In this document: positions 6,729 through 28,000 of the stretch, piece after piece
Numbering within the stretch: the stretch's first letter is position 1
Layout: each line of letters starts with the position of its first letter
Assembly: GCA_008501765.1 (NCBI GenBank)
Contig: QQUE01000014.1
Span: forward strand, 173,299 to 210,115
Length of the DNA stretch: 36,817 bases
DNA from: Calditrichota bacterium
GTDB lineage: Bacteria > Zhuqueibacterota > Zhuqueibacteria > Zhuqueibacterales > Geothermadaptataceae
Reading direction: 5' to 3'
Program-made: the position numbers and the translations under genes
Notes under the pieces: generated by a model
Databases searched by the model: none
What the model was told of the DNA's origin: nothing
What the model saw: only the letters and a program-made list of their open reading frames with translations

Positions 6729-6767
6729 GAATAATGCCAGGCAATTATTTCCAAATTGGGCATAAAA

Positions 6768-6800: not shown

Positions 6801-6917
6801 TTAAGTATGTTAAAGAAGGTGTCTTTTCATCTGCCAGAATAATTTATTCTAATTTCAAAAAATTTTAATTCTTAATCTCAAAAAAATAAATTCATCCCAT
6901 TCCCAAATTTAAGAAGT

Positions 6918-8300: not shown

Positions 8301-9832
8301 CTCGCTTGCATCTCCTCTTTTTGATGAATCATTTTGTGCTGAATCGGTAAAACAATGGTAAAAATCGTGCCCGCATTTTCTTTGCTGGTGAATGAAATTC
8401 GACCGCCGTGCTCCTGAACGATTTGCATCGCGATTGCCAGACCCAACCCTGTTCCCATATCGCGTGTCGTGAAAAATGGTTCGAATATTTTCTTCTTTTG
8501 CTCTTCAGGAATACCGTCCCCGGTGTCTCCCACCGAAATTTCGACATTTTCTCCAGCAGAAACAGCATGCAATCGCAGCACGCCGCCATCTTTCATGGCA
8601 TCAAAAGCATTGCGCATTAAATTGAGAATCACCCGGCGAATTTGATGGAAGTCGGCAGCAATCTTCGGCAAATCACTCTCAATTTCCCTGATAATTTCAA
8701 TACCTTGTGAATTTGCTTCCGGCTCAACAAAGTCAATTGTGTCTTCAAGAAGTTCATAAAGACCAACCAGATGAAAATCAGCCTCCGGCAAGCGGGAAAA
8801 CTGCAGATAATCCTCAGTCAAGTTGGTTACACGCTCGACTTCGTCCATAATGGCTTTTAACAGCGTTTCCCCTTCGGCGGAAACACCATCCGCATTACAC
8901 TTTAATTCATCACCCAAAAGTTCGGCATTCAAGCTGATTGAAGATAAAGGATTGCGTACTTCATGTGCCACTTTTGCCGCCATTTGCCCGATAATCGCCA
9001 GCCGTTCACTCTGAATAATTCGCTTCTCCAATTCCTGTTGCTTGCGCATATCAAACTCCACACCCATGTAGCCAACCGTTTTGTTGCGTTCAATAATTGA
9101 TGTAATCGAGAGCCAAACAGGGATTTCCTGCCCATCTTTGTGGCGGTTTATGATTTGCCCCGCCCAACTTCCTTTGGATTTTATCTCGGCCCATATCGCA
9201 ACATAATGTGAATTGGCTGTCCGGCTCGACCTTAAAATGGAGGTTCGCTGGCCAATAACTTCATCGTAGGTGTAGCCATAAATATCGAGGAATGCGCCGT
9301 TTACTTCGATAATGCGGGTCTTTAGATCGGTGATGAGAATTCCATCCGTGCTGCCTTGAAATGCGTTATAAAACAAATTTAACCGTGAAGGTTGGTGGCT
9401 TTTATCAGCTTCGGTGCTAGCTTGCTTTTTCGGTTCGGTCGCGCATAAATCAAGAATATGCATTCCCAGTTCATCAAAAATTGCATCTAAAAGCTGGTGA
9501 GTTTCCCTCAGCTCACTTATCAAATCAGACGACTGACCTAAGTCGTTTTTTATTTGGGATTTAACTACGTTAATTATTATTTGCAACTCCCGATTATTCC
9601 CCAATAAAAACGGATGTTTTTGGAAAAATGGTTCGAGCGATAACTGCTCGTGACTGACCTTTTCATTTTCTGCTGACCGGATCAGGCATTGCCAAATTTG
9701 TGCGATAAATTCCGGCAGCGATGCTGCTGGAAAAAAAGCCCGAATCGGCTCCGATGTATAAAGTCGCTTTATGAGCCCGCGAATTACAGAATCTTTTTTG
9801 GTGTTCAGATAGGTCAAAAGAAAGGAGTTCAT
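8294..9832 (-). CDS. Cytosolic PAS-domain sensor histidine kinase
   Basis: 512 residues. Residues 1-150 resemble no domain I recognise and hold no membrane segment or signal peptide. A PAS domain with PAC-like tail spans about 152-265 (GILITDLKTRIIEVN ... GYMGVEFDMR). The HisKA domain carries the phospho-acceptor His290 in AHEVRNPLSS. The HATPase domain shows the N box (ILNLMRNAFDAM, about 402-413), G1 (VGDTGDGIPEE) and G2 (GTGLGLAIAM, about 460-469). It should autophosphorylate and pass phosphate to Asp57 of the overlapping NtrC-type regulator. Without a membrane segment the input is probably intracellular, sensed by the PAS or N-terminal domain. No good ribosome-binding site is seen before the ATG at 9832, so the start is only moderately sure. 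Confidence 0.93.
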   Translation of the reverse strand: MNSFLLTYLNTKKDSVIRGLIKRLYTSEPIRAFFPAASLPEFIAQIWQCLIRSAENEKVSHEQLSLEPFFQKHPFLLGNNRELQIIINVVKSQIKNDLGQSSDLISELRETHQLLDAIFDELGMHILDLCATEPKKQASTEADKSHQPSRLNLFYNAFQGSTDGILITDLKTRIIEVNGAFLDIYGYTYDEVIGQRTSILRSSRTANSHYVAIWAEIKSKGSWAGQIINRHKDGQEIPVWLSITSIIERNKTVGYMGVEFDMRKQQELEKRIIQSERLAIIGQMAAKVAHEVRNPLSSISLNAELLGDELKCNADGVSAEGETLLKAIMDEVERVTNLTEDYLQFSRLPEADFHLVGLYELLEDTIDFVEPEANSQGIEIIREIESDLPKIAADFHQIRRVILNLMRNAFDAMKDGGVLRLHAVSAGENVEISVGDTGDGIPEEQKKKIFEPFFTTRDMGTGLGLAIAMQIVQEHGGRISFTSKENAGTIFTIVLPIQHKMIHQKEEMQARW

Positions 9833-10372
9833 TTATATGCTATATAGTCTGGACGACTATTCCTCACATTCCAGGTTCGAAAAAACAAAGATTATTCCTA
9901 AAATTTAAAAAACTGCAAAGCTATCTAATTAAGCGCCAAAAATCAAGCTGTTTCCATTGCATAATAAAAAATTTTCAGGTTAATCACCCAAATTTTTAGT
10001 ACAAAATTAGCACTTTACATTTGGATGCATTATTTTGGAAAAATCGACAACATAATACCTGCGTTACGCGCATTGCCAATTTATGTTGATCTGTCATCAT
10101 CGATGCGGATCCATTCGTACAAAGAGTGCATTTCATGAAGCGCGTTGGAATCGATAAATCTTAATTGGAAACTTCACAAATATATCTTAATTTACAACAA
10201 TCAGCTTCATTTATCAGCAAAATTATCATTTCTAATACAATAATTCTGCGGGGTGCCACAACCGCCTTGACTCTTCACATTGTTATTTAACAGCTTAGAG
10301 TTAAATTATCATCCAATATTTCAAAACGCTTTGCACAAAATTGATCAATTTTAATATACTACAGGAAGTAAA
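9833..10372. other. Divergent intergenic region
   Basis: About 540 A/T-rich bases between the kinase gene (minus) and the surface-protein gene (plus). It must contain promoters for both directions. I checked the minus-strand TGGCAC near 10252-10257 as a sigma-54 element, but GC does not occur at the required spacing. On the plus side AGGAAG sits just before the ATG at 10373. No coding frame, hairpin or repeat stands out. Confidence 0.5.
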
Positions 10373-11605
10373 ATGACAAATTTTAAGATATGCGTAATTG
10401 CTCTTTTCTTTTGCCTGGCAAATTTAATCCAGGCACAAATTCCCAAAGTGATCAGCTACCAGGGGCTGCTTTCGGAATCAACCGGGACACCGGTTACCGA
10501 TGGTGAGCACACAGTACATTTTCGCATTTATGACGACTCCACCAGCGGACAAATTGAGTGGCAAGAATCTGCATTAATCCAAATAAATCAAGGAATTTTG
10601 TCCCATAATCTCGGGACAGTAATCCCGCTCGAAATTCCATTCACAAAAGCATATTGGCTTGGAATCACAATTGGTGATGGCGCAGAACTTGAACCCCGGC
10701 TGCGATTCACTGCCGCCGCTTATAGTTTGGGGAGTGTCAATAGCCAAAATCTCGTGGGAACACGCAACAGATTTCCCTCCGAAGGTAATGTTGGAATTGG
10801 GCTCGAAACCGCCCCCGAAAGTGCCCTTGACGTCAATGGAACAATACGTTCCCGCGAGGGTGGCTTTCAATTTCCCGATGGCAGTGTGCAAACAACGGCA
10901 GCCAGCGGCAGCGCCATTTCTTCTGGCAATTCTCTCGACGCGAGCGATGGTGATCCGGCAAACGCTCTTTTTATCAACGCAAACGGCGACGTCGGCATTG
11001 GAACAACGCAGCCCAAAGCTGGTTTGCATGTTGAAAAAAGCGCTATCAAACTCAACGGTCACACGCAAATCAACCGTTTGCAAATTACAACGCCACGAAC
11101 GTTTGTGCACTGGCATTTGCGCACCGGTGATGACGTTCCCGGCCTGGCACCCCACCAATTGCATTTTCAGTACGATGTCTATGGAAATTATAAAACTAAT
11201 TTTAGCCTCATCTCCAACGGCAACGCGGTGTTTCACCACAATGTCGGAATCGGCACGAACATTCCCCGGGAACGGTTGTCGGTGAATGGCAGAATCCGGG
11301 CAAGAGAAGTGCTGGTCACCCAGAAAAATTGGCCGGATTTTGTCTTTGATCCTTCCTATTCGCTGATGCCTTTGGCGACGATAGAAAAATTCATCGCAGA
11401 GAATCAGCATCTGCCGGGTATTCCTTCGGCGATGGAAGCAGAAAAAGATGCTGTGCCACTGGGTGATATGCAGGCAAAACTGCTGCAAAAAATCGAAGAG
11501 TTGACACTTTATCTTATTGAGATTAAAAAAGAAAATACGGAGCTGGCATCACGGCTTGCCACACTTGAAAGTGATAAATCGAGTAAAAAGGTATCAAATA
11601 AATGA
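10373..11605 (+). CDS. Secreted tail-fibre-like surface protein with GIGT-type repeats and C-terminal coiled coil
   Basis: 410 residues with a signal peptide (about 1-21, ending IQAQ). Residues about 22-120 form a beta-rich domain (ISYQGLL...) common at the start of such FCB surface proteins. Then come spaced motifs of the kind NVGIGL, DVGIGTTQP and NVGIGTNIP, each followed by a short A/S-L-x-V-N-G unit, plus FQFPDGSVQTTA, as in phage tail fibres and trimeric beta-helix proteins. Residues about 325-405 (ENQHLPGIPSAMEAE then a heptad-like KIEELTLYLIEIKKENTEL) form a coiled coil, as seen in proteins with tail-fibre-type C-termini. A trimeric exported fibre is likely, but its ligand is unknown. 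AGGAAG precedes the ATG. The last four bases overlap the hydrolase start (ATGA). Confidence 0.8.
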   Translation: MTNFKICVIALFFCLANLIQAQIPKVISYQGLLSESTGTPVTDGEHTVHFRIYDDSTSGQIEWQESALIQINQGILSHNLGTVIPLEIPFTKAYWLGITIGDGAELEPRLRFTAAAYSLGSVNSQNLVGTRNRFPSEGNVGIGLETAPESALDVNGTIRSREGGFQFPDGSVQTTAASGSAISSGNSLDASDGDPANALFINANGDVGIGTTQPKAGLHVEKSAIKLNGHTQINRLQITTPRTFVHWHLRTGDDVPGLAPHQLHFQYDVYGNYKTNFSLISNGNAVFHHNVGIGTNIPRERLSVNGRIRAREVLVTQKNWPDFVFDPSYSLMPLATIEKFIAENQHLPGIPSAMEAEKDAVPLGDMQAKLLQKIEELTLYLIEIKKENTELASRLATLESDKSSKKVSNK

Positions 11606-13776
11606 TTAAAATTTTCCTGAATTCACTCGCTGTAATGTGCTTCGCTACAACTGTTTTGGCACAGGAGGGATACAAACCATACCAGGCAAAGAGGTATTCA
11701 TTTCAATCATCAGCACAGCCTTCGCAACTAACGCAGGCGCTGCAGCACCCATTCGCGAAGATAGACCGATCGAGTTTGCAGACCGGCATTTTGCACGATC
11801 GCGTGCTTTCATTTCAATCTGATCTTATTCACGAATTAACCGGAAATGAAGATGGCACGGCCATCGATTTCAAGCAATTTAAAGCCATTTATTTTGAGAT
11901 GGAAAAAGCAGCCCTGCCGCCATTCGAAAGTATGCCGCTCACAGTTTTGCTGCAAAATATTTCTACACACTTGAAATCTGAAAAAAACATCCCCATTCTC
12001 ATCGGTAATTTTCGATTTGAAACCACTGCGTCTGATGCTCTGCAGCGCGGTGTTTTGCGAAAAAATCAGGCTGAGCAATTTGAAATCGAGCCATTCAAAA
12101 ATGAATCTCCGTTTGAGTTGCACCAACTTTTCATGGCGGCAATGCCTAAAAAACAACTTTGGGGCCGAGCGTTTAATTTCCTGATTTCATCAGAATTTAT
12201 GGTTGGCAATTCTATGACACATCCAGTGAAAATTGAAATCGATTTTGACGATGGCAGCGGGTGGCGGCAGAGCAGTTCCGAGCAACAGCATGCCGTATTT
12301 TATTCGAGGACAGGAGTTAAACAAATTGCTGTGAAAATGGAATTTACAGATCAGGTTATGACAGGCATATTTCAGATTGACGTTGACACCACGCCTTTGC
12401 CGGAATACAGCACGATTCCCATTACAGCAGAAATCCCCTATCGCGGTGAATTCGGCGAGCTGACCGCATATCTGATCAAAAGTGAAAGCGAGCGCAGCCA
12501 AAATATCAAGCAGCCGGTTGTTTTTGTTGAAGGATTTGACACCGACAATGTCGATCCGACCGGGACAAAAGGTTTTGAAGAATTGTGGGCCAAAGCCAGT
12601 GAACAAAATCTCGCCGCTCAACTGCTGGAACGGGAATTCGATATTTTGCTGCTCAATTTTAATGATGGAGCTGATTTTATCCAGAAAAACGCCTTTGCGT
12701 TGCTGCAATTGCTGCAAGAAATCGAGCAGCAAAGTGAATATGCGGGCAATACGACCGTCATTGGCGCCAGCATGGGCGGCCTAGTGGGGCGCTATGCGTT
12801 GGCACATGCGGAAAAATATGGATTGCTGCACCACACGCATACTTTTATCACCTTTGACACGCCACACCGGGGCGCCAATATGCCACTGGGCGTGCAAGAG
12901 TGGCTGCGCTATTTTTCGGGTGAGAGCAGCGAGGCCAAAGACGCGGACAAGCAACTCAATACGCCCGCCGCAAAACAAATGTTGGCTCTCCATCGGACAG
13001 GGAATTTTGAACATGTTTACTTTTATGATGAGCTGGCTCAACTTGGTTTTCCGGGTCGGACGAGAAATCTGGCCATAGCCAATGGCAGCGGTGGTGGCAA
13101 AGGCTATCCTTTTGAGCCTGCGAATAAAATTATTGATTGGCATTTCCGTCATTTCTGTGTTGATATCGACGGCCATGCTTACGCAATAAATTCCGGGCGC
13201 ATATTTTATGGCTGGATCGATAAACTCGGTTTTGACAATCCAAAATCGACGGAAATAAAAGGCCCTGCAGAAGTGCCGTCCTGGGATAACAGCCCCGGCG
13301 GCGGCCGATTTACGATGGAATTTATTGCCAGTTCAACCCCGAAAGCCAAATGCGGATTTTCCACCATAACCTTGGGCAACATCAAAGCGCCGCATCCTGC
13401 CCACAGTTTTATCCCGACAATCAGCGCTCTCGATTTAGCGACGGATGACCTGTTTTATCCTGCAGAAATGGACAGCACATCGCTTTCGCTATCCCCTTTT
13501 GATGAATTTTATATGCCGCAGGAAAATCAGGAACACGTTCAGATTACGCCGGAAAATGTCGCCTGGCTTTTAGACAAACTGGACAGAATTCGGATTGTGA
13601 ATAAAAAATACGGCGGTGGACAAACCACATCAATTTTTGCTCCCGTTTCCATTGAGATGGCTGCCTCGCATGTTGAGGAAAGTGGTACCCTGGAATTGCG
13701 GGCCGGGCAGGAAATTAAACTATCCGGTGAATTTCAGGCAGTGGAGGGCAGTGAGTTTCGTGCTCAGGTAAAATAA
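11602..13776 (+). CDS. Secreted PGAP1-like alpha/beta hydrolase (lipase/esterase-like) with a C-terminal anchor-type domain
   Basis: 724 residues with a signal peptide (about 1-20, ending TVLAQ). Residues 1-280 are a beta-rich region I cannot assign. The hydrolase core spans about 300-620: nucleophile elbow GASMGG with Ser390, oxyanion-side motif FVEGFDTDN, FDTPHRGAN (419-425) typical of PGAP1-like and lipase families, and HPAHSFIPTISALDL, where a catalytic His is likely. Esters or lipids are expected substrates; which one is not visible. The final 50 residues (LELRAGQEIKLSGEF ... GSEFRAQVK) resemble the 3-coathanger-stack domain found at the C-terminus of secreted FCB proteins. The start overlaps the previous stop by four bases (ATGA), so the two are translationally coupled and probably work at the cell surface. 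Confidence 0.85.
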   Translation: MIKIFLNSLAVMCFATTVLAQEGYKPYQAKRYSFQSSAQPSQLTQALQHPFAKIDRSSLQTGILHDRVLSFQSDLIHELTGNEDGTAIDFKQFKAIYFEMEKAALPPFESMPLTVLLQNISTHLKSEKNIPILIGNFRFETTASDALQRGVLRKNQAEQFEIEPFKNESPFELHQLFMAAMPKKQLWGRAFNFLISSEFMVGNSMTHPVKIEIDFDDGSGWRQSSSEQQHAVFYSRTGVKQIAVKMEFTDQVMTGIFQIDVDTTPLPEYSTIPITAEIPYRGEFGELTAYLIKSESERSQNIKQPVVFVEGFDTDNVDPTGTKGFEELWAKASEQNLAAQLLEREFDILLLNFNDGADFIQKNAFALLQLLQEIEQQSEYAGNTTVIGASMGGLVGRYALAHAEKYGLLHHTHTFITFDTPHRGANMPLGVQEWLRYFSGESSEAKDADKQLNTPAAKQMLALHRTGNFEHVYFYDELAQLGFPGRTRNLAIANGSGGGKGYPFEPANKIIDWHFRHFCVDIDGHAYAINSGRIFYGWIDKLGFDNPKSTEIKGPAEVPSWDNSPGGGRFTMEFIASSTPKAKCGFSTITLGNIKAPHPAHSFIPTISALDLATDDLFYPAEMDSTSLSLSPFDEFYMPQENQEHVQITPENVAWLLDKLDRIRIVNKKYGGGQTTSIFAPVSIEMAASHVEESGTLELRAGQEIKLSGEFQAVEGSEFRAQVK

Positions 13777-13957
13777 TTTTTTGCATGATGGTTGCATTAC
13801 GTTTTATTTTTTTAAACTGCGTCTGAAAAGAATTGCCTTCCTTAATTATTTGTCATAACTTTTACCAGTATTTGTATCAACCGAAACCCGATTCTGCCCC
13901 ACTGTTCTTCCAAACAATCTCGATCCAAAAATCCAAAGTCCATTATGGAGGGTGAAA

Positions 13958-16628
13958 ATGCAAAAATGGATAATCGCGTTGTTGGCATGTATCTGCATTT
14001 TTTCAACAATGCAAGCTCAAGAATCGAACCTATTTAACGTAAACTCTCTCGAATCAAATTTTCTCAACAATCTGCCCACCCGTGATTTAAATCCCTGGCT
14101 TTATGGCTATTTTTCCGGCACTGTGGTGCAAAGCTATCGCGGTGTGCCCTACCTGCACGTTCACGGCAGCCGTGCTGACGAAGTTGGCTACCAATTTGAA
14201 GGCGTGAACATTCGCAGTGATTATACCGGACTTTCAGCCATGCGTTTTATCCCGGAAGTGCTCGGTTCAGTTTCGCTCAATAAAACACCATCAGTTTCAC
14301 TGAGCACAGCGAGCGCCCTTGTTTCGCACACCTTTCGAAATCCAACAGACAAACTCCGGTTTTCCATCCGCGAAACCAGCGATGCTTTTACCAGCGCCTA
14401 TGAAAAACGCATGGATACGTATTCCTACGGCTATAATAACCTGCTCTTTACAGGTGAAGGGAAAATGTTCAATGACAAACTACAGTTCATCGCCGGCTTC
14501 GAAATGGAGCATTTTGACGACCATTACAGGAAGTTTTGGCCGGGGTTTACTTTTGGGAGTGAGGAGAATCCCATTGAACTCGATTTAGAATGGGAGCCAC
14601 TTCCGTTTTCTGAAATTTATGGAACCAATCAAATTGTTGTGAAACCGGGCAATATTCCGGCAGCAAAAAGTGACCAATGGCTCTTCAACGGAATGTTGAA
14701 ATACGACGCATCCTTTGGCTTGGCTAAACTGATTTATCTCGACGATAAAAAGACATTTCAGGCCAATGACACGCCTATCCGGTGGTTATTCAACCAATCT
14801 CGCATTCCTGAGACGACAGATCACACACGCGTTGTGTCAGCCCAATTGGATTTCAAACTACCTCTTGGGATCGATTCCCATTGGCAGGCGGATTATTTTT
14901 CATCAAAGTCAAAAACATGGGATCCGTTGCAGGAAGATGATTTTTTTAAACTACAGTGAGGAGCAGGCTTATACAAATCTTGGCATTTCATCCGGAGGAA
15001 ATCCTTGGTCTTACCTAAGTTCTGAAATCCATGCGTTCGATTTTGTTTGGAACAATGCTTTAATTACAGATTATGAGAAACGAGAAGAAAACCGTTTTAC
15101 TTTGAGTTTAAATTTAACAAAAAAATGGAACAGCAATAGGATAAAAGGCGGAATCCAATTTGAGGAAGGAAAACATCGATATTATAAGATTTCCGTGGAA
15201 GCTTTAAAAGCTGAGAATACTCGGGAGTATTTGGAGCGTTATTACTGGTCAAACTTAGTAGAGAATTATGGTTATAATTTATATGGCGAAAAAATCCAGG
15301 AAGATGTAGGATTAAGCGACAAACCCAAATCCCCGCGCAGCACACAATTTTATTTAGAAGATGAAGTGATTTTCGATCAATCAATCTTCACGTTTGGATT
15401 GAATTATATTTCGATGAATACAGGCGCCTATCGGGATAAAAATTTAGTTTATCCATATTGGGACAGAGGGGCTCACCCCAATTCAACGTATATTAACAAA
15501 TACGAAACAGATCGATATCACTCCTATTTATTACCACATTTTTCGTGGCAATTTAAGCAGAATGAAAGGTTTGACCATAAACTAAAAATCTTTAAGTCAG
15601 CGACATTACCGAAACTAAGTGATGTCTATTTGGGAAGGACGCACAAACATAGGATTTATGATGGAGGGTGGTTCTATGCGTTCCCCAAAGGACCTAACGC
15701 CAATCCCGTAGAGTCGTCTAATATTTACCTGCAAACTGATTATAAATATTCAAGCACATTGCGACTGCAATTTGCTGTATTTCACCGCAAATCTGAAACG
15801 TGGTTGCAAACAGCACACATTGAAACTGACACCCTCGGCCCCGCCTCAAACTACATGACCTTGTTGAATAATGGCGAGAATCAGGGGCAAGGATTTGAGC
15901 TAAACTTTCAAATTAATAAACCTGGTGTCAAATTCCTGGCAAATTACACATATTCGCACACCACCGGAACTGCCAGCTACCCTAATTCAAACGTTCAGGA
16001 TATCGCACTCTTTGGAAATGATACTCAGCGGTATGACTTCAATCCAGACAAACGCAATCTTTTAGAATTCAATCAGGCTCATCGATTGAATGCCTGGCTC
16101 ACAATGCAGGCTGACAAGAATGCCGCGTTTGCTCTACGCAATTCTTCACTAACTTTTCTCTATCATTTCAATTCCGGACATACTTTTAAACAGTATCATG
16201 GATCTTTTGGCTGAGGTTGCGGTCCAGCAACGGGTTCGTTGCTCTCAGATTCCACGCCACGCGCTCGGATTTTTGTAAATGAAATTACTACTCCGTGGAT
16301 TCAAAATTTGGATTTGCTTTTCGAAAGGAGTTTTAATTTTGGTCAGTTCAGAACACGATGGTTTATCGCAATTCAAAATGTGTTTAATCGTCAGAACGAA
16401 CATCATGTTTACTGGCGTACCGGCAAAACAACTGATGACGGAAGTTTTTCAACAACGTGGCCGGAGCTTGTAGATATTTATAAAGCAAATTATGGCGCCG
16501 AATGGCAGGAATTATATCAAAAAATAAACATCGAGCACCGTCAACATTATGCATTAGAACAAGGCGGTGATCTCTTCGGTCACCCGCGCGAAATACGCTT
16601 TGGGGTGGCGCTTGATTTTAGCAGATGA
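13958..16628 (+). pseudogene. TonB-dependent-receptor-like outer-membrane protein, tandem copy 1, broken by a frameshift and an in-frame stop
   Basis: First of three tandem paralogs. The ATG at 13958 (MQKWIIALL) matches the other copies and has GGAGGG five bases upstream; a GTG six bases earlier is less likely. The frame is open to a run of seven T (14941-14947). The other copies have GATTTTTTG or GATTTTCTG here, and deleting one T restores FLNYSEEQ, so a single T was gained. The new frame then meets TGA at 16212-16214, after which the same frame continues with LLSDSTPRA and ITTPWIQN to the normal end GHPREIRFGVALDFSR. With the extra T removed the gene has 890 codons, against 893 and 889 for copies 2 and 3 (stop included), so nothing else is lost. 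Two separate lesions favour a true pseudogene, though a T-run indel is also a classic sequencing error. Function as for copy 2. Confidence 0.85.
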
Positions 16629-16640
16629 GTATTCATCAAT

Positions 16641-16673
16641 ACTGATTCCATCACTCAGAGTGATGGAATCAGT
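16641..16673 (+). other. Intercistronic hairpin between receptor copies 1 and 2
   Basis: ACTGATTCCATCACT (16641-16655) and AGTGATGGAATCAGT (16659-16673) form a perfect 15-bp stem with a three-base loop CAG. No U-run follows; instead AAGAAGGA, the ribosome-binding site of copy 2, begins about ten bases later. It is more likely an mRNA-processing or stability element, or a partial terminator, than a full terminator. Confidence 0.8.
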
Positions 16674-16694
16674 CCATTTAAAGAAGGAAAAAAA

Positions 16695-19373
16695 ATGCAA
16701 AAATGGATAACTATCCTACTGATTTCTTTCTTTTTCTTTTCAACAATCTCCGCGCAAGAAGAAACCAATTTCAACATTTTTTCGTTCCAGACAGACTTTC
16801 TCAACAATCTGCCAACCCGTGATTTAAATCCCTGGCTTTATGGCTATTTTTCCGGCACTGTGGTGCAAAGCTATCGCGGTGTGCCCTACCTGCACGTTCA
16901 CGGCAGCCGTGCTGACGAAGTTGGCTACCAATTTGAAGGCGTGAACATTCGCAGTGACTACACCGGGCTCTCGGCCATGCGTTTTAGCCCGGAAGTTTTG
17001 GGCTCTGTTTCGCTCAATAAAACACCTTCAGTTTCACAGAGCACAGCGAGCGCCCTTGTTTCGCACACGTTTCGAAATCCAACAGACAAACTCCGTTTCT
17101 CCATTCGCGAAACCAGTGATGCTTTTACCAGCGCCTATGAAAAGCGCATGGATACTTATTCCTATGGTTACAACAATTTACTCTTCACTGGCGAAGGCAA
17201 ATTTCTCGGTGATAAACTGCAGTTCGTCGCTGGTTTTGAGATTGAACATTTCGACGACCATTACAGGAAGTTTTGGCCCGGATTTACTTTTGGGAGTGAG
17301 GAGAATCCCATTGAACTCGATTTAGAATGGGAACCACTTCCGTTTTCTGAAATTTATGGAACCAATCAAATTGTTGTGAAACCGGGCAATATTCCTGCTG
17401 CGAAAAGTGACCAATGGCTCTTCAACGGAATGTTGAAATACGACGCATCTTTTGGCTTGGCTAAACTGATTTATCTCGACGATAAAAAAACATTTCAGGC
17501 CAATGACACGCCTATCCGGTGGTTATTCAACCAATCTCGCATTCCTGAGACGACAGATCACACACGCGTTGTGTCAGCCCAATTGGATTTCAAACTACCG
17601 TTTGGGATCGATTCCCATTGGCAGACGGATTATTTTTCTATGAAATCGAGGACGCGGGATCCTTTGCAGGAAAATGATTTTTTGAATTATAATCAAGATA
17701 ATGCTTTTATTGAAATAGGAATTCCTCCTGATGAACACTGGAGATCATACTCGCAAATATATGGTTATGATTTTAATTGGAACGGAGCTATAATATCTGA
17801 TTTTTACAAATATGATGAGAGAAGAGTTAAATTCAGTTTTAATGTGGTAAAATGCAACAAAATCACTAAATTTAAAGCTGGTGCCTATATTGAAAACAAT
17901 TTACATAGAAAGTTTAGCCTACCCTCCAATATATTCAGTTTTGATAACTTCAATAGCTTATTTGATGTTGAAAATCAAAATAAATTAATAGAATTTAGCA
18001 CCTTTTCAAATTGGGGGTATGATTGGTTTGGTGAAGAAATAGAAGAAGCAGACTATTGGAATGATGGCCCGAGAAAACCTCAAAATTTAGGAGTTTACCT
18101 TGAGAATTCATTTGAAATGGATAATTCCCTCATTACTATTGGATTACAATATGCGAGCTTTAAAACCGGAGCCTTGCAAATTCCATCACTGAAATCTCCA
18201 CCATTCAATGATTTTAATCGGGAGACTTTGGATTATGATTATCCGCCCTCCTCAGACTTTGATTCAAATAACAAAAAATCCCACATTTTACCTAAGCTAA
18301 ATTGGATATACAAATATAAACCCAATTCGTTTATTTCTCTATTTTATGGCCGATCTGCAACAATGCCAAAACTGGATGATCTATATTTATCAAAAGGTGA
18401 ACGGAATCAACTTTTTGTTGGGGGTTCATTAAATCCATTTCCAAAAGGACCTAACGCTAATCCTGTTCTCTCGACAAATGTCAATTTTAATATAAACCAT
18501 AGCGTCTCAAATCATATTCAACTAAACGTCAATTTATATACTCGTTTTTCCGATTCATGGTTACAATCCAATAAAGTTAAACCTAACGCAACTTCTGATG
18601 CTTCAGATTATGTAACTCTATTGAACAACGGAGAAAGTCGTTCGCAAGGCATTGAGTTCAACTTCAACTTTCAAAAACCAGAAATTAAAGTTGCAGCCAA
18701 CTATACATTTTCCAATATTAGAGGAACATCAAGTTATCCTAATTCTAATTTTAGAGATGTTTATATAGAATCTAATATCCATAAAAATTTCAACCCAACA
18801 GAACTATATCCTTTAGAGTTTAATCAGTCTCACAGGCTCAATACGTGGATATCTTTGCAAGCGACTAAAAGTTCACCAGCATTTATTCGAAACTCATCAA
18901 TACACTTTCTCTACCATTTAAATTCAGGTCATTCATTCTGGCAGTACGATAATCTAACCTATGCTGCACGTCCATTTCTAGGCGCTATTAATTCAGACCT
19001 TAAGCCCATGGTGAGAGACAATGCAAATGAAATTAGAACACCCTGGGTACACCGCCTTGATATTCTTTTTGAACGAGAGTTTAATTTTGGATTATCTAAT
19101 ATGCGCTGGTTTATTGCAGTTCAAAATATATTGAATCGCCGGAATGAACATCATGTTTATTGGCGAACTGGCACCACTAATAGTGATGGTACCTTTATAT
19201 CCAATGGTTGGATCATACCAGCCTGGACCGAAGAATACGGCTCATCTTCATTGGATCTCTACCAAAAAATAAACATAGACCACCGTCAACATTATGCATT
19301 AGAACAAGGCGGCGACCTCTTCGGTCACCCGCGGGAAATACGCTTTGGTGTGGCGCTAGATTTTAGTAGATGA
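16695..19373 (+). CDS. TonB-dependent-receptor-like outer-membrane protein, tandem copy 2
   Basis: 892 residues with a signal peptide (about 1-20, ending STISAQ). Residues about 35-130 resemble a receptor plug: the block LPTRDLNPWLYGYFSGTVVQ leads to VPYLHVHGSRADEVGYQFEG, the counterpart of the usual I-R-G-x-R-x-D-E plus D-G-V. No carboxypeptidase-like N-terminal domain and no obvious TonB box are present. From about 190 on, alternating aromatic strands (SQGIEFNFNFQKPEIKVAAN, FNQSHRLNTWISLQ) fit a large beta-barrel, closing with REIRFGVALDFSR, whose last Phe is third from the end rather than terminal. The class imports or binds siderophores, glycans or peptides. The substrate is unknown. AGAAGG precedes the ATG. 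The middle of the gene is markedly A/T-richer than its ends. Confidence 0.85.
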   Translation: MQKWITILLISFFFFSTISAQEETNFNIFSFQTDFLNNLPTRDLNPWLYGYFSGTVVQSYRGVPYLHVHGSRADEVGYQFEGVNIRSDYTGLSAMRFSPEVLGSVSLNKTPSVSQSTASALVSHTFRNPTDKLRFSIRETSDAFTSAYEKRMDTYSYGYNNLLFTGEGKFLGDKLQFVAGFEIEHFDDHYRKFWPGFTFGSEENPIELDLEWEPLPFSEIYGTNQIVVKPGNIPAAKSDQWLFNGMLKYDASFGLAKLIYLDDKKTFQANDTPIRWLFNQSRIPETTDHTRVVSAQLDFKLPFGIDSHWQTDYFSMKSRTRDPLQENDFLNYNQDNAFIEIGIPPDEHWRSYSQIYGYDFNWNGAIISDFYKYDERRVKFSFNVVKCNKITKFKAGAYIENNLHRKFSLPSNIFSFDNFNSLFDVENQNKLIEFSTFSNWGYDWFGEEIEEADYWNDGPRKPQNLGVYLENSFEMDNSLITIGLQYASFKTGALQIPSLKSPPFNDFNRETLDYDYPPSSDFDSNNKKSHILPKLNWIYKYKPNSFISLFYGRSATMPKLDDLYLSKGERNQLFVGGSLNPFPKGPNANPVLSTNVNFNINHSVSNHIQLNVNLYTRFSDSWLQSNKVKPNATSDASDYVTLLNNGESRSQGIEFNFNFQKPEIKVAANYTFSNIRGTSSYPNSNFRDVYIESNIHKNFNPTELYPLEFNQSHRLNTWISLQATKSSPAFIRNSSIHFLYHLNSGHSFWQYDNLTYAARPFLGAINSDLKPMVRDNANEIRTPWVHRLDILFEREFNFGLSNMRWFIAVQNILNRRNEHHVYWRTGTTNSDGTFISNGWIIPAWTEEYGSSSLDLYQKINIDHRQHYALEQGGDLFGHPREIRFGVALDFSR

Positions 19374-19385
19374 GTATTCATCAAT

Positions 19386-19418
19386 ATTGATTCCATCACT
19401 CAGAGTGATGGAATCAAT
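19386..19418 (+). other. Intercistronic hairpin between receptor copies 2 and 3
   Basis: ATTGATTCCATCACT (19386-19400) and AGTGATGGAATCAAT (19404-19418) form a perfect 15-bp stem with loop CAG. Relative to the hairpin at 16641-16673, the second base pair has changed from C-G to T-A on both arms, so pairing is kept. As there, the ribosome-binding site (AAGGATGG) of the next gene follows closely and there is no U-run. Confidence 0.8.
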
Positions 19419-19439
19419 CCTTTTAAGGATGGAAATAAA

Positions 19440-22106
19440 ATGCAAAAATGGATAACTACCCTGCTGATTGCTTTCTTTTCCTTTTCAACAATCTCCGCCC
19501 AAGAAGAAACCAATTTCAACATTTTTTCGTTTCAGTCAGACTTTCTCAACAATCTGCCAACCCGCGATTTAAATCCCTGGCTCTACGGCTATTTCTCCGG
19601 AACCGTCGTGCAAAGTTATCGCGGCGTGCCCTACCTGCACGTTCACGGAAGCCGTGCTGACGAAGTTGGCTATCAATTTGAAGGCGTGAACATTCGCAGC
19701 GACTACACCGGACTTTCAGCCATGCGTTTTATCCCGGAAGTGCTCGGTTCAGTCTCGCTCAATAAAAAACCATCAGTTTCACAAGGCACAGCGAGCGCCC
19801 TTGTTTCGCACACGTTTCGAAATCCAACAGACAAACTCCGTTTTTCCATCCGCGAAACCAGTGATGCTTTTACCAGCGCCTATGAAAAACGCATGGATAC
19901 GTACTCTTACGGTTACAATAATCTGCTTTTCACCGGCGAAGGCAAATTACTCGATGATAAACTGCAATTCATCGCCGGATTTGAAATGGAGCATTTCGAC
20001 GACCATTACAGGAAGTTTTGGCCGGGGTTTACTTTGGGAGGTAGCGAGAAACCTCTCGAAATTGATCCGGCTTCCGTTGTACCGCGTACTTTTGAAGAAG
20101 TATTTGGAACAGACAAAATCGTCGTAAAGCCGGGCAATGTTCCAGCTGCGAACAGTGACCAATGGCTATTCAATGGTATGCTTACCTATAAAACCTCATC
20201 TGGATTAGCGAAACTAATTTTCCTCGAAGATAAGCGAACCTTTCAGGAAAATGACACACCAATTCGCTGGATATTCAATCAAAAGCGCATTCCCGAAACG
20301 ACCGACCATACCCGAGTAATTTCTGCTCAGTTTGACGCAATAATGCCTTTTGGAATTAAATCCCACTTGCAAGCTGATTATTTTTCTTCGAAATCGAAGA
20401 CATGGGATCCGTTGCAAAAAAATGATTTTCTGAATTATCGAGAAGACGAAGCATTTGAAAACATTGGACTCTCCTGGGGCGAATACAAATGGTCCTCCCC
20501 GGCGTACTCAAGAGTATCTGGATTCTTTTTCGATTGGGATGAGGCACTTTTAACGAATTACCAGAAAAGAGAAGAAACCAACCTAACACTGAAATTTGAC
20601 ATCGAAAGATCGTTCAATTCAAATAAACTCAAAAGCGGGCTTAGCATAAACCATGGAACGCATCGGTACTATCGAATGTTAAATTCGCTCCAGGTTTCTC
20701 TAAGACGAGACGAACTCACTTTTCCTGGCGAAACTTTTACCACCGCCATGTATTACGTCACAAATTATGGGTTCAATTTATTTGGAGAAAAAATTGATAA
20801 TTCAACTTCATGGAGCGATGGACCGCGAAAACCACAACAGGTAGAAATCTTTCTTGAAGATGAAATAAGATTTGATCAATCGATTTTTACATTTGGATTA
20901 AATTATCTGAAAATTAATACCGGCGCTTACCGTTATCCGAGTCTAAATGATCCCATTTTTTATACGACTGGCGATCAATTTCAGAATTCGGGAAACGATT
21001 ATGATAAAGACAAAATCCACAACTACTTTTTGCCAAATTTTACCTGGCACTTTGAACAAAATAATCGGCTGACATACCAATTGCAGATTGCACGGTCAGC
21101 AAGTCTCCCAAAACTCGATACAATCTATATGGGTAAAGGCGAAAAAAATAAAGTTTTCTGGGGAAGCAGCTTTTATGGTGCTCCCAAAGGACCAAATGCA
21201 AACCCGGTTAAAAGTACGAACTATTATTTAGGAGCAGATTATAATTATTCAAAATCTGTATGGGTGAATTGTGCATTTTTCTATCGCAGTTCTGATTCAT
21301 GGTTACAATCAGAATTTATCAGAGTTCTGCCAGCTTCCAGCGCATCCGACTACTCTACATTGTCAAACGGGGGTGAAAACCAGGCGAAAGGATTTGAACT
21401 TAACATACATGCAGAAAAACCAGGAATGCTGTTGCAGGCAAATTACACTTTCAGCAATACAAAAGGCACCGCAAGTCATGCCCATTCGAATGTATGGGAT
21501 GAACAAATCGAGAATCCGCTTTTTGAGCCTGGTAAACTGTATGACCTGGATTTCAACCAGAGCCATCGACTGAATGCCTGGCTGTCACTGTATTGTGGAG
21601 AGAATAAACCGAGTTACTTGCGGAATTCAACATTGAGTTTGCTTTGGCATTTTAACTCAGGACATAGCTTCTGGAAATACGACGGATCAATTGGCAGCAT
21701 CACACCGCATTCTGGAAGTATTTTATCCGACAGAGATCCACGTTCGAGAAGTAATCCCCAAAAAACGACGACACCATGGATTCAGAATATCGATCTGCTT
21801 TTGCAACGAAAGTTCACTTTCGGACAATTCAGCACGCGTTGGTTTATCGCAATTCAAAATCTTTTTAATCGCCAAAATGAGCATCATGTTTACTGGCGCA
21901 CCGGAAACACCAACAATGACGGAACTTTTGATGCCTGGGACGGACTTGAAGCTACCTGGATCGATGCTTACGGTGAGCCAGTACTTGACCTCTACCAAAA
22001 AATCAACACCGAGCATCGCCAACATTATACAAATATGCAAGGCGGTGATCTCTTCGGCCACCCGCGGGAAATACGCTTTGGGGTGGCGCTGGATTTTGGT
22101 CGGTAG
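19440..22106 (+). CDS. TonB-dependent-receptor-like outer-membrane protein, tandem copy 3
   Basis: 888 residues with a signal peptide (ending STISAQ) and the same architecture as copy 2: plug region about 35-130, barrel beyond, C-terminal GHPREIRFGVALDFGR. The first 190 residues are almost identical to copies 1 and 2. From about residue 195 (WPGFTLGGSEKPLEID) it departs from the other two, which stay alike for roughly another 110 residues. Its barrel (for example LLTNYQKREETNLTLKFDIE and QSIFTFGLNYLKINTGAYR) is closer to copy 1 than to copy 2. AAGGATGG before the ATG is a suitable ribosome-binding site. It converges with the OmpA-like gene, the two stops being 35 bp apart with no terminator-like stem between them. 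Substrate unknown. Confidence 0.85.
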   Translation: MQKWITTLLIAFFSFSTISAQEETNFNIFSFQSDFLNNLPTRDLNPWLYGYFSGTVVQSYRGVPYLHVHGSRADEVGYQFEGVNIRSDYTGLSAMRFIPEVLGSVSLNKKPSVSQGTASALVSHTFRNPTDKLRFSIRETSDAFTSAYEKRMDTYSYGYNNLLFTGEGKLLDDKLQFIAGFEMEHFDDHYRKFWPGFTLGGSEKPLEIDPASVVPRTFEEVFGTDKIVVKPGNVPAANSDQWLFNGMLTYKTSSGLAKLIFLEDKRTFQENDTPIRWIFNQKRIPETTDHTRVISAQFDAIMPFGIKSHLQADYFSSKSKTWDPLQKNDFLNYREDEAFENIGLSWGEYKWSSPAYSRVSGFFFDWDEALLTNYQKREETNLTLKFDIERSFNSNKLKSGLSINHGTHRYYRMLNSLQVSLRRDELTFPGETFTTAMYYVTNYGFNLFGEKIDNSTSWSDGPRKPQQVEIFLEDEIRFDQSIFTFGLNYLKINTGAYRYPSLNDPIFYTTGDQFQNSGNDYDKDKIHNYFLPNFTWHFEQNNRLTYQLQIARSASLPKLDTIYMGKGEKNKVFWGSSFYGAPKGPNANPVKSTNYYLGADYNYSKSVWVNCAFFYRSSDSWLQSEFIRVLPASSASDYSTLSNGGENQAKGFELNIHAEKPGMLLQANYTFSNTKGTASHAHSNVWDEQIENPLFEPGKLYDLDFNQSHRLNAWLSLYCGENKPSYLRNSTLSLLWHFNSGHSFWKYDGSIGSITPHSGSILSDRDPRSRSNPQKTTTPWIQNIDLLLQRKFTFGQFSTRWFIAIQNLFNRQNEHHVYWRTGNTNNDGTFDAWDGLEATWIDAYGEPVLDLYQKINTEHRQHYTNMQGGDLFGHPREIRFGVALDFGR

Positions 22107-22141
22107 ATAGCAGTTGAATCAGATTGGATTTGTTCAAAGCA

Positions 22142-25027
22142 TCAGAGCGTATCACGAACGACTTCGACTCCAACGCGCCGATTTTTTTCTCGCCCCGCTT
22201 CAGTGGTATTTGGTGCGATCGGGAAATTTGCACCGTGCCCAACGGCCTTCATTCGGCTTCGCAATACATTTTTAGTCAAAAAATAAGCCAGAACCGCATC
22301 CGCACGCTCTTGTGATAATTTCACATTATTTGCCGCCGATCCTGTGTGGTCGGTATGCCCGGTAATCAGGAATATATTTTCTGCAGCTGCATGCAGTTTC
22401 GGTAAAAACTTATCCAGATAGCCGTCGAGAAGCGCTTCTGTGGTGGGAGAAATTTTTGATTCGTTTGTAGCAAAACGGATGGCCAAACTTGTCGGGATTT
22501 CCACCACAAATTTAGCATGATTATTGTCGGGATTTTGATCTTTTAATAACTTGATTTCACTGGTATTTACGATATCCATAAAAAAGTTGTCGCCAAATGA
22601 GACACGCCGGTTTCGCTGCCGGCCAGCGTCGGTCAAATTTGTTGCGATTGGCCGCAATTCACCGTAGCCTCTGGATATGAGTAATGTATCCGCTATCCAT
22701 TTAGCAATCTTCCCGGAAGTATCGATGCTGTCTAAAAATGTTAATACGCTGTTCGACCGCCTGTCGGAAAGTCCCTGATTGTAAGTTTCCGTCCCCTTCC
22801 AATCCGTATGCCCCTGAATTTCTACAGGTTTATGTGGATTGTAACGGATACGTTCGTGGAATATTTTTAAAATGCGCCCGAGTTCGCCTTGCAAGGCTGT
22901 TTGTGAAACGGGACGTAAACTCGATTTAGCAAAAGTAAATTCAATATTTTTAAATGGATCCACCAGCTCGACAGTATAATTTATTGTTTTTTCTTCCCCA
23001 ACCGCCAGTGTTGCAAATTCCCAGGTAATAATATTCTGACTCTCCGTGCCAGCATAATTGTTAAAACTTTTGAGCTTGACAAATGGCGATAATTCATCCA
23101 CAACCGTGACATTTTCAGCAGGTGCAAATCCTTCATTTTTTATTTTAAGCTCGTAAACCAGATCAACGCCGACATTGTTGGGAGTCAAATTTGTCAGGCA
23201 ATTTTTTGTGATGGAAACATCGGTCCAGCACGCACTGTCGGCCCTGGCGATATTATTCTGTTCGTCCGATTCGAGGATGCGGTTGCCCACGTCAACTTCC
23301 GACGTGAGACGGTATGCACCCTGTGCCTTTGCAAGTAAAAAGCGATTTTGATAAATCTCCCCCGGCGCAAACGTAGCCAACGTGTCCCGAAAAACCGCGT
23401 TCCGTAACTGTGGTAAATTAGTTTGCGATTTATCGGTGAATTGCTCCTCACTGATTTTTACCGCATAATCGAAGACGGCGATGTGAACATCGGAAACGTG
23501 TGTTTGCCCCTTATTTATGACCACAAACTCAGCGGCAGGAATCTCACCGCATTCAATTGTCAATTGCTGCATTTCAAGGTCAGGAATCCGAATTGTAAAT
23601 TCTGAGATATGCTCGCCATTGACATCGGAGACGCGGTAGTGGTGGTTTTTATCGTAAGAGATGACAGTCCAATAATAAGTACCGGCCTTTAATTTTTTTA
23701 GTGGGATATTATTTCGAAAAGCCTTGGAGCTAAGAATCACCGGATTCGTCCCAAATTCAATTAGAGAAGAATCGACAAACTGTTCTGTTTCGTTGTATTT
23801 TCTGCCATACTTGTCACGGACACCTTTGATAGTACAAGCAAGCCTGGCCTTATTTGTATCCACAAGAACCCAATATTCCACTGCATCAAAAAGGTCCCGA
23901 TCGATGGAATTTTCCCAGGTGAGTTCAACCGAATCCGTTTCGATGATTGCTGCAAATTCAGGAAGTTGCAGCCGGAATGGTTCCGGTGCGACAAAAAAGT
24001 GAGAAGCTGAAAAATGCAATGTATTGGCGAAGCTGCCAACTCCTTGTTTATCCGAATCTTCAATGCCCGTCAATTCAAGTTGGCCTGAATATTTTCTCCC
24101 AATCGTTTTGTTTTTGTAGATTCCCGCTTTATCATCCAGCCCAAAACTAAGTCCGAAGGAATAATTGGTCAATAAATTGCGATTTTTCAGATCGATCAGA
24201 TAGCCAAAATAGAATGAAAATACGCGCCCATAACTCCATTCCCAGGCCAGGCTGGCAAAGTCTGCTTCATCCTTTATCGCTCTGTATCCGAGCCCAAACC
24301 GGGTTTGATATCCATCGTGGGTGCCGAGATAAACGCTCGATCCGATGCGAAATGTTTGCGGCAGGGGTGTTTCCTCGGCCACATATTTTATTGGTTGACC
24401 AAAATTTTGCAGCGAAGCGCCAACCGAAAAACGCCATGATTTTAAGTACGGCACTTTATTGTTGAAAAACCGCCGTGTACCGGATTTAAAAATGGCGCCA
24501 AAATCGTAGGCGATCGTGTTTGCACCGAAACGGTCGAGTTCGCTGTTAAAATATTTAGCGTGAACCCCGAACGAGATTCTGTCAGCGAATCCCGGAACAG
24601 CTGCACCGTATCCCAGGCCAATAATATAGTCCCCAGCCTCAACTCTCGGCATGCGGCCCTTGGTGCTGTCAAATGCAGGAAGTGTGATATTGGAGAAACT
24701 GAGCATAATTTTCTGCTGTCGCAAGTTGCCAATTCGCAGCCGCTTGCCGGCGAATACTGCATTGGATGTAAAATCACTAATCCATTCCGAGCGCGCCACC
24801 GACCAGCCGATTTCACGGCCCATGCCAATAACTCCGGGATTGCCCCAGATGGTATACAAATTATCGACATCGCTTACCAGAGCCGTGCCGTTGACTTGTT
24901 GTTTGGCGCCGGGCAAAAATTTCAAAAATGCGCCACCGACACGAAGCTGTGCAGCCAAATCATGACTGAAAAAGGTGGCCAAAACGAGGCTCAGCGAAAT
25001 TTTCACAATGCTTTTTTTAGCAATCAT
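22142..25027 (-). CDS. PorV-like beta-barrel / CARDB / DUF11 / double OmpA-domain outer-membrane protein
   Basis: I choose the ATG at 25025-25027, giving 961 residues and a clean signal peptide (MIAKKSIVKISLSLVLATFF...LAAQ). It overlaps the upstream stop as ATGA, which explains the lack of a ribosome-binding site; an ATG 27 bases earlier would only add nine residues. Residues about 28-320 resemble the PorV/UPF0164 barrel family (VGGAFLKFLPGAKQ, WGNPGVIGMG). About 350-480 is fibronectin-like, 480-600 CARDB-like, 610-690 DUF11-like (KNEGFAPAENVTVVDELSP). Two OmpA peptidoglycan-binding domains follow: about 700-812 (QGHTDWKGTETYNQGLSDRR) and 850-955 (TGHTDHTGSAANNVKLSQER). The barrel would sit in the outer membrane and the OmpA domains would grip peptidoglycan. 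PorV relatives shuttle type IX cargo; that role here is inference. Confidence 0.85.
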   Translation of the reverse strand: MIAKKSIVKISLSLVLATFFSHDLAAQLRVGGAFLKFLPGAKQQVNGTALVSDVDNLYTIWGNPGVIGMGREIGWSVARSEWISDFTSNAVFAGKRLRIGNLRQQKIMLSFSNITLPAFDSTKGRMPRVEAGDYIIGLGYGAAVPGFADRISFGVHAKYFNSELDRFGANTIAYDFGAIFKSGTRRFFNNKVPYLKSWRFSVGASLQNFGQPIKYVAEETPLPQTFRIGSSVYLGTHDGYQTRFGLGYRAIKDEADFASLAWEWSYGRVFSFYFGYLIDLKNRNLLTNYSFGLSFGLDDKAGIYKNKTIGRKYSGQLELTGIEDSDKQGVGSFANTLHFSASHFFVAPEPFRLQLPEFAAIIETDSVELTWENSIDRDLFDAVEYWVLVDTNKARLACTIKGVRDKYGRKYNETEQFVDSSLIEFGTNPVILSSKAFRNNIPLKKLKAGTYYWTVISYDKNHHYRVSDVNGEHISEFTIRIPDLEMQQLTIECGEIPAAEFVVINKGQTHVSDVHIAVFDYAVKISEEQFTDKSQTNLPQLRNAVFRDTLATFAPGEIYQNRFLLAKAQGAYRLTSEVDVGNRILESDEQNNIARADSACWTDVSITKNCLTNLTPNNVGVDLVYELKIKNEGFAPAENVTVVDELSPFVKLKSFNNYAGTESQNIITWEFATLAVGEEKTINYTVELVDPFKNIEFTFAKSSLRPVSQTALQGELGRILKIFHERIRYNPHKPVEIQGHTDWKGTETYNQGLSDRRSNSVLTFLDSIDTSGKIAKWIADTLLISRGYGELRPIATNLTDAGRQRNRRVSFGDNFFMDIVNTSEIKLLKDQNPDNNHAKFVVEIPTSLAIRFATNESKISPTTEALLDGYLDKFLPKLHAAAENIFLITGHTDHTGSAANNVKLSQERADAVLAYFLTKNVLRSRMKAVGHGANFPIAPNTTEAGREKNRRVGVEVVRDTL

Positions 25028-28000
25028 TGGACGAGTAAAAATTTTAATTTGCAATGTTCATCAACTGTGTGAATTATGAGCACGTAGGCGCCGCTGCCCA
25101 TCTTTTTTCCCGAGCTGACAAATCCGTTCCAATAAACTTTATGTGGCACGCCAGCGGAAAAAACACCTTCCGTTACTGTCGTAACATGCGTGCCGACGAG
25201 GTCATAAATTTTAATTCTGACCCATTCCGTTAGACATATTTCAAAATTTATCTCCAAGTCGGAATCCACGGCGGGTGCATAGACATTTTTATCGAGAAAA
25301 CAATCGATGCCACAGGTTACCAGCATGCCTGCGTGCGAATGATTATTCCCCGGGATTTGATCCTCGGACGCGAAAACACTGGCAGAATTGAGCAAAGAAT
25401 CAGGCAATACCGGGATATTGGGCAGAATTCTGGCAGAGTAATTGATAAATATTTTATCTCCTGCATCGAACTGGCGATTAAAGGCCCAGCGCGCCACATT
25501 ATTTGTCAATACATCCGGCTGAACTGAGTAATCACCAAGCTCGAAATAGACGGAAGCCGTATCGGTAACCTCAAAATAATTGACGCTGGCAGGCCCATTA
25601 TTTGTAACTTCAAGCTCAAATTCAACACTATCCCCTATTTTGCCACTTTGCCGGGAAATTCGTTTCCTTATTGCCAGATCGGTAAAATCTGGAGTTTCAA
25701 ATCCCGGGCGAATTATAATTGCCGCCGAATCCTGGTTGTTGCTGAAAATGGTATCGACCGGGCTGAAAACCGTGACAAAATTTTGTAAATCTTGAAATTG
25801 CGAAGTATCAGAAACAGATATTTCGCCGGAAACCTGCAAAGTAATCGTTTCCCCGGACAGCAATGTGAATTCTGCCCAGCGGATTGTGTCGCCGCTGACG
25901 CTGAAATTGGTCTGTACCGAAGCATAATTGCGATTTGTAATTTCATCCGGCCAATTTTCGAGAAGATAGAACTGATCGGTGGAATCCGGGCCAAGGTTTG
26001 ATACTTCGATTTGGTAGTTTATTTCTTCGCCATTTCTGAGGGTATCTTTGAGCGCAGTTTTCGTTACCTGCAAATCAGCATAGTTTCTCAGGGGTGGTAC
26101 ACTTCCCGGGCGAACTGTGACTGCTGCCGAATCCTGGTTGTTGCTGAAAATGGTATCGACCGGGCTGAAAACCGTGACAAAATTTTGTAAATCATGAAAT
26201 CGTGAAGTATCCGAGACAGATATTTCGCCGGAAACCTGCAAAGTAACCGATTCCCCGGACAGCAATGTAAAATCTGCCCAGCGGATTGTGTCGCCGCTGA
26301 CGTTGAAATTGGACTGCGTCGAAGCATAATTCCTGTTCAAAATTTCATCCGGCCAATTTTCGAGAAGATAGAACTGATCGGTGGAATCCGGGCCAAGGTT
26401 TGAAACTTCGATTTGGTAGTTTATTTCTTCCCCATTTCTGAGGGTATCTTTAAGCGCAGTTTTCGTTACCTGCAAATCAGCATAGTTTCTCAGGGGTGGT
26501 ACACTTCCCGGGCGAACTGTGACTGCTGCCGAATCCTGGTTGTTGCTGAAAATGGTATCGACCGGGCTGAAAACCGTGACAAAATTTTGTAAATCATGAA
26601 ATCGTGAAGTATCCGAGACAGATATTTCGCCGGAAACCTGCAAAGTAATCGATTCCCCGGACAGCAATGTAAAATCTGCCCAGCGGATTGTGTCATCGTT
26701 GACGCTGAAATGGGACTGCGGAGATGCATATTTCCGGTTTATAATCTCTGCAGGCCAATTTTCCACGAGATAAAACCGGTCTGTTGAATCTGGCCCAAGA
26801 TTGGAAACATCTATCTGGTAATTAATTTCTTCGCCATTTCTGAGCGTGTCTACTAGCGCATTTTTCACTACCCGCAGATCAGTGAAATTCGGGGGTGGCG
26901 TATCGTCACATTCCTTAAAAATGACAGAAAGAGTGGCAGAATCATTCGAACTCAGACTATCATTTTTTACTAAAACTGTTGCCGAACTCGGTAAACTTCC
27001 TGCAAAGTCAGATGCAAGCACGGCATTGATAAAATATGTTTTCTCTGAATTGCCCGCAATCGAATCGAGTGCGACCTGCCAAACCTGAGTCGTTCCTGTT
27101 GAATCCGTTTTCAGATCGAAATTTGAATTTACCACCTTTAAATTTGCCACCAATTCAGCCTGCAATTTCACATTGTAGGCTGAGATCTGACTCAGATTAA
27201 AGACCGAAAAATGGTAACGGACTGTATCCTGCAAACAAAATGTATCCGCAGCAGCAGTATGGCTCACAGATAAATCAACGGGATAGAAAACATGCAATGT
27301 TGAGTCGGCATTATTGAAAGGATTCGTGTCGAATTCAGCTGAAACCATCACTATATTTTCCAATAAAAGCGATTGACGAAAATTGGCACTCTCACGAATT
27401 TGAGCGTGGTAAGTCAAAATCAACGAATCATTTGGCAGCAGCAAATTATTTTGTTGCCAGAAAAAGACGTTATTCGTAACTGAATCCGGTGGAAAATTAA
27501 ATAAAGTAGCAGAAAGTTTGGCGTCCAATGTATCACGAATGGAAAAACTGGTTACACTCTCCGGGCCTTCGTTTCGGACAATGATACGGTAATCAATGCT
27601 TTCGTGATCTGGTGCAGGCAGCCAGTTTCCCTGTTTTTTTATGGATAAATCATATTGCGGCGGTATACATTCCGGCTTCAGCTCAAGGGAGTCCCTGATA
27701 ATTTGATTGTCAATTTGGACATCAAATTTTGTAAAAAGCTGGCTGTTAATTTTCAGACCTACTGAACTATCAAGTTGACTAAATTTCAGGTTAAGAGTCA
27801 GAGTTTGGTCAAAAGTGAGAACATCAGCGTAATCTTCAGGTCGGGGAATCCACGTAAAAGAATAGAGAGATAGAGAATCTATTTTTTGCGGTACCCAGGC
27901 ACCAAGTTTAGTAGTATCAACATCAATCCCCTCCGGCATAATTGTCTTTAAAACCAGACTGTCGATTTCAGACACATTAAACAATCTTTGCTGCTCTTCA

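Follow-up and report, generated by a model that had tools for sequence, protein, structure and literature searches.

The window (36,817 nucleotides of contig QQUE01000014.1, part of a 5.9-Mb genome in 21 contigs) carries three TonB-dependent-receptor-like genes arranged head-to-tail in a single orientation. Receptor copy 1 (c1; 13958..16628, + strand) is a probable selenoprotein gene with one frame change in a T run; copy 2 (c2; 16695..19373, + strand; 892 aa) is intact, has no in-frame TGA and contains an AT-rich barrel; copy 3 (c3; 19440..22106, + strand; 888 aa) is likewise intact and free of TGA. Aligning c1 with c2, c3 and receptors from four other genomes (L056, L065, L204 and L205) placed the frame change in a T run at 14942..14948 (+ strand), distinct from an in-frame TGA at 16212..16214 (+ strand), the proposed selenocysteine codon, which is followed by a SECIS-like hairpin at 16226..16243 (+ strand). 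Palindrome searches located a hairpin in the c1-c2 spacer (16643..16671, also recovered by folding) and another in the c2-c3 spacer (19388..19416).

Comparison of the three copies in 90-base windows revealed a sharply structured identity profile. DNA identity is only 60% across the c1 signal peptide, rises to about 76–98% over codons ~30–190 among all three copies, falls to mostly 40–65% in every pair from codon ~335 to ~800, and recovers to 73–83% at codons ~810–840 and 81–93% near the gene end. The constant block is longer in c1 and c2 (~300 codons, at 92–100% identity to one another) than in c3 (about 190–210 codons, with identity of ~70% from codon ~210). Overall, the barrels are ~50% identical, the plugs and last 35 codons are near-identical across copies, and the spacers after c1 and c2 are conserved as well, at 92% over a 300-nt block that includes both. 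An alternation of high, low and high identity on this scale (2.7 kb) is far from what chance would give, and it confirms what an earlier note had read from the letters of this DNA: three tandem receptor-like genes with a fixed plug and end and divergent barrels.

The array is predicted to encode plugged 22-strand barrels

Of the intact copies, c2 alone exceeds the cut-off for the Pfam barrel domain (PF00593, 1e-9), and neither c2 nor c3 matches the Pfam Plug domain (PF07715), which homologous full-length relatives do match. Both align end to end with receptors of ~1000 aa composed of CarboxypepD_reg, Plug and barrel domains, which are widespread in related bacteria; records of candidate division KSB1 are among the named homologues and relatives. 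AlphaFold models of c2 (pLDDT 85.7, pTM 0.87) and L056 (pLDDT 88.7, pTM 0.88) each contain a plug and 22 barrel strands, and their fold matches in the PDB are BtuB, FepA, FrpB, OprC and other TonB-dependent transporters (E 1e-25 to 1e-28), supporting the receptor identity proposed earlier. The connections between barrel strands in the c2 model alternate regularly between long and short; if the topology is the usual one for this fold, the long connections L1–L11 would face outside. No clear TonB box was seen by eye; coupling to TonB is presumed.

Searching solved structures with the c2 sequence gave nothing useful, and a profile search gave mostly matches to the N-terminal domain and one weak match to the barrel. 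As a single-protein query of genome contigs, c2 likewise recovered zero relatives; an alignment query was needed. In the wider family, the KSB1 genome OFTM356 carries two tandem full-length receptors (L093:2322-5063 and 5977-8739).

Matching ends are young and divergent barrels are old

A codon-level comparison separates the two parts of the genes by age. In codons 30–190 the copies differ from each other by a dS of 0.47–0.55 and a dN of 0.02–0.06, as against a dS of 1.8 to saturated when each is compared with the one receptor gene that another genome of the genus, G001, carries at the syntenic position (L052). In codons 335–800, by contrast, dS is saturated between the copies and against G001 alike, and dN is 0.5–0.6. 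Trees give the same picture, with branch lengths of 0.01–0.03 at the N-terminus and 0.58–0.95 in the barrel, and the ends of the common tracts vary by copy pair. Low dS at the ends combined with saturated dS in the middle points to plugs, last 35 codons and spacers that have been kept alike by gene conversion or unequal exchange, and to barrels that diverged anciently. Selection, acting on the protein, does not rejuvenate synonymous sites and so does not explain the matching ends. A barrel split that predates speciation is unsupported (p-AU 0.42), the data being compatible with either order.

The earlier note had favoured barrels that evolve new ligand specificity, or antigenic or phage escape, on a constant chassis; as a history, this would be a recent triplication followed by fast diversifying selection on the barrels with the plug held constant. 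Some expectations of this view do appear on the c2 model: the alignment gaps among the three copies lie in external loops, and loops L5, L6 and L8 are the least conserved. However, within the variable part (c2 residues 335–835) the strands, at 37–53% identity, diverge as much as the external loops, at 39–45%, which is half of what the note itself had named as refuting; pN exceeds pS in no 60-codon window, a test whose power saturation limits; and barrels with saturated dS beside plugs at ~0.5 are segments of different age, a pattern that largely refutes diversifying selection as the cause and makes it very improbable. A second possibility is that the barrels did not diverge in place and were imported from foreign donors through homologous recombination that used the conserved ends as anchors. 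The GC3 of the c2 barrel (0.26, as against 0.51 in the c2 plug; 0.37–0.38 in the c1 and c3 barrels) and the lack of a supported c1/c2/c3 clade in the barrel tree would fit such cassette exchange, but no donor was found and a grouping of the three barrels is not rejected (p-AU 0.42), leaving import a possible though doubtful account. It is compatible with conversion of the ends, and both processes may operate together. More remote is a phase- or antigenic-variation array, with copies moving by recombination into a site of expression, or with the c1 T run acting as a contingency tract. Direct repeats of at least 300 nt spaced ~2.7 kb apart, the T run at the c1 frame change and the conserved hairpin-bearing spacers are features that such an array could use. 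Yet the copies all point the same way, each with a start and a signal peptide of its own; the spacer palindrome is the region's sole inverted repeat; promoter-like sites do not exceed background; and a T7 run is short for a contingency tract. We consider this reading unlikely.

Judged by its synonymous sites, then, the array appears to be a clear case of constant ends and a variable middle produced by gene conversion and not by selection. It is plausible that the three barrels take different ligands.

A recurrent palindrome and neighbouring genes

The hairpin in the spacers is long (z -6.2). Copies of its ~27-nt palindrome, GATTCCATCACT-N3-AGTGATGGAATC, lie between the receptor genes and, allowing up to 3 mismatches, in about ten other places; similar sites lie on contigs C3, C6, C10 and C11 of the same genome, and a reversed-pattern control returned none. 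The palindrome is possibly a dispersed REP-like hairpin. A variant lies inside a 91-bp tandem repeat of ~9.7 copies on contig C6 (L055:5036-5918). No known RNA family in Rfam matches within 13000–23000.

A DUF11-repeat surface protein of 1227 aa is encoded at 25024–28707, and its syntenic counterpart in G001 has 950 aa, a possible repeat expansion. The N-terminus of the product of 10373–11605 weakly matches, below cut-off, the 'mosaic adhesive trimer' fibre domain of Bdellovibrio (NF053851).

The in-frame TGA of c1 is conserved in five genomes

The TGA of c1 recurs at the equivalent codon in four other genomes, making five genomes in two phyla. The first relatives found with it were L056 (KSB1 CS3-K085) and L065 (Neomarinimicrobiota CP070787.1), and a search of the second phylum added L204 and L205. 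Reading the TGA as U, the contexts are GSFG-U-GCGP in c1, GGFG-U-PDPA in L056, ATSG-U-GRSL in L065, GGFG-U-PVAL in L204 and AFFG-U-ELLM in L205. At this site all four relatives carry TGA and none carries TAA or TAG; apart from it, the frames of L056, L204 and L205 run uninterrupted to the natural stop, and that of L065 is open across its unmasked record. Codons downstream of the TGA are as constrained as those upstream, with a pN/pS between L056 and L204 of 0.36 after the TGA and 0.40 before it. Reassignment of UGA as a sense codon is ruled out, since TGA is the normal stop of c1, c2 and L204, and chance decay is unlikely given the equivalent codon in five genomes. On the model, the site falls in the predicted extracellular loop 10.

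UGA-containing members group with cysteine-containing ones in a single clade (100/100) of receptors without CarboxypepD_reg. Two relatives carry cysteines within one residue of the UGA site, although not exactly aligned with it (CVCSC in L166 and VCSCC in L167). Other members of this clade (c2, c3, the G001 copy, L013 and L165) have neither U nor C at the site, so not every member needs this residue; the UGA codon of c1 may preserve an old condition of the clade. Cysteine beyond the signal peptide region is absent from four of the five UGA proteins, the masked end of L065 being unseen; c1 contains a single cysteine, two residues after U.

Selenocysteine machinery and SECIS-like hairpins

The genome of the window encodes a tRNA-Sec whose anticodon is UCA, scoring 66.4 bits against a gathering score of 47, and, ~2 kb away, a SelB above the curated cut-off. 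Genomes of L056, L065 and L204 also encode tRNA-Sec; in the draft genome of L205 a stricter search did not find one. Since tRNA-Sec is common in the sample of that phylum (42 of 58 genomes), its presence discriminates weakly. The genomes with the cysteine forms L166 and L167 (G059 and G058) yielded no tRNA-Sec above threshold. A survey of KSB1 reported selA, selB and selD in the phylum, no selC, and named no selenocysteine receptor (PMC9012183); unlike that survey, we detected tRNA-Sec in several genomes of the phylum to which the window belongs.

The published bacterial SECIS model requires a loop of 3–9 nt with G in its first two bases, a stem of 4–16 bp, a distance of 16–37 nt from the UGA and an MFE <= -7.5 (PMC13188914). 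Hairpins that fit these rules follow the UGA in all five members; that of c1 has a 7-bp stem and a 4-nt loop, GGTT, starting at the 19th nucleotide past the TGA. No comparable hairpin is present in c2, c3, G001 or L013, and hairpins at the UGA sites outscore those of 199 homologous sites that have no TGA (p 6e-5, Mann-Whitney), under a model loose enough that 10% of homologous non-UGA sites score >=5. The shuffle z of the L205 hairpin is -4.3; the other single-hairpin z-scores are modest, and the energies of the c1 and L056 hairpins do not fall below those of shuffles. The case for a SECIS element thus rests on common position and not on energy. L065 and L205 have a GGUCU loop in common, which we take to resemble the loop of the E. 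coli fdhF SECIS and regard as a lead only.

A probable selenocysteine codon and a separate frame change in copy 1

The earlier note had treated the TGA of c1 as damage in need of repair, probably wrongly, since the evidence now favours selenocysteine. The frame change is a separate matter. It would truncate the product, which counts against the selenoprotein reading, and it may reflect recent decay, slippage or an assembly error; judging from the long open frame after the T run, any decay of c1 would be recent. One could hold that c1 is simply a pseudogene, with frame change and TGA both products of decay and the match across genomes a coincidence. The second lesion in c1 speaks for this, as does the disruption of the receptor copy at the syntenic locus of G001, which carries three frame changes and a TAA elsewhere in the gene. 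A pseudogene would nevertheless have to account for four other genomes with TGA, never TAA or TAG, in genes that are open elsewhere, for a frame that stays conserved after the TGA and for the SECIS-like hairpins, and we judge this explanation improbable.

Two genes at the syntenic locus of G001, one lipase-like and the other the sole receptor gene (L052:6476-8583 and 8860-11412), are broken into several frames, and the flanking OmpA and DUF11 genes are intact. Decay or poor assembly would account for these breaks, and a relaxation of constraint at the locus across the genus is possible.

A proposed role for a selenol at the cell surface

Taken together, the computed fold, codon conservation, hairpins, tRNA-Sec and SelB genes and dS pattern support a tandem array of genes resembling TonB-dependent transporters, with ends homogenised by conversion and a UGA in c1 that is read as selenocysteine in loop 10; we put the probability of this reading at roughly 0.8. 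We infer that selenocysteine is actually inserted, and c1 may be expressed despite its frame change. Quite probably, the UGA-containing genes of KSB1 and Neomarinimicrobiota represent a new family of outer-membrane receptors with selenocysteine in extracellular loop 10, mostly as the sole Sec or Cys of the mature protein.

We propose that SelB and tRNA-Sec would insert selenocysteine at the UGA, directed by the hairpin just downstream, and that the last three strands, made after the UGA, would complete the barrel. The selenol would then be exposed in loop L10 on the outer face of the receptor, where it could bind a soft metal or a metal-bearing ligand ahead of plug-gated import. We put forward capture of a soft metal or metal ligand tentatively, as the less than even but preferred role, on two grounds: clusters of Cys take the place of Sec in two relatives, and redox chemistry would lack a partner thiol in four of the five members. 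The neighbouring genes of L056, L065 and L166 are mutually unrelated and gave no clue to the ligand.

Selenocysteine in bacteria is mainly known from redox proteins (see PMC13188914). If our reading is correct, a selenol at the cell surface would serve as a ligand-binding residue and not as that of a redox enzyme. A lone selenol in a receptor loop suggests substrate capture, and would give these uncultured bacteria a reason to spend selenium at their surface. Standard annotation would end such genes at the UGA and label them as fragments or pseudogenes, an error whose correction is immediate.

Comparison with known systems

As tandem paralogues under partial gene conversion, the three genes behave like other concertedly evolving arrays, with low dS in common tracts, saturation elsewhere and pair-specific tract ends; nothing is unusual in kind, and the converted tracts here are the plug and end strand. 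The proteins share with the TonB-dependent transporters (BtuB, FepA, FrpB and OprC; PF00593, PF07715) a plug within a 22-strand barrel and an aromatic/hydrophobic C-terminal end strand, but the array copies have neither a PF07715 match nor a clear TonB box, and some members carry a UGA in external loop 10. To the SusC-like receptors of KSB1, Ignavibacteria and relatives, built from CarboxypepD_reg, Plug and barrel, they are homologous over the whole plug and barrel, including the motifs SGH and PR-IR-G; the short receptors differ in having no N-terminal CarboxypepD_reg and in forming a separate 100/100 clade.

Selenocysteine has been predicted in one TonB-dependent receptor before (Desulfosarcina, deep-Sep, PMC12013277; NF049945, TonB-dependent receptor of the FCYXU motif type, PMC13188914). 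Beyond these papers, our full-text literature searches turned up none that links selenoproteins to TonB-dependent receptors in this way. Against NCBIfam release 20.0, which we assume to include the NF049945 model, c1 had no match to it at E<=1 and L056, L065, L204 and L205 had none at E<=10. Both groups are predicted selenocysteine-containing TonB-dependent receptors, but NF049945 has a CxxU motif (FCYXU), whereas the receptors described here have [F/S]G-U and, in four of five members, no Cys in the mature protein. Most likely, these outer-membrane receptors form a selenoprotein family that is new and distinct from NF049945.
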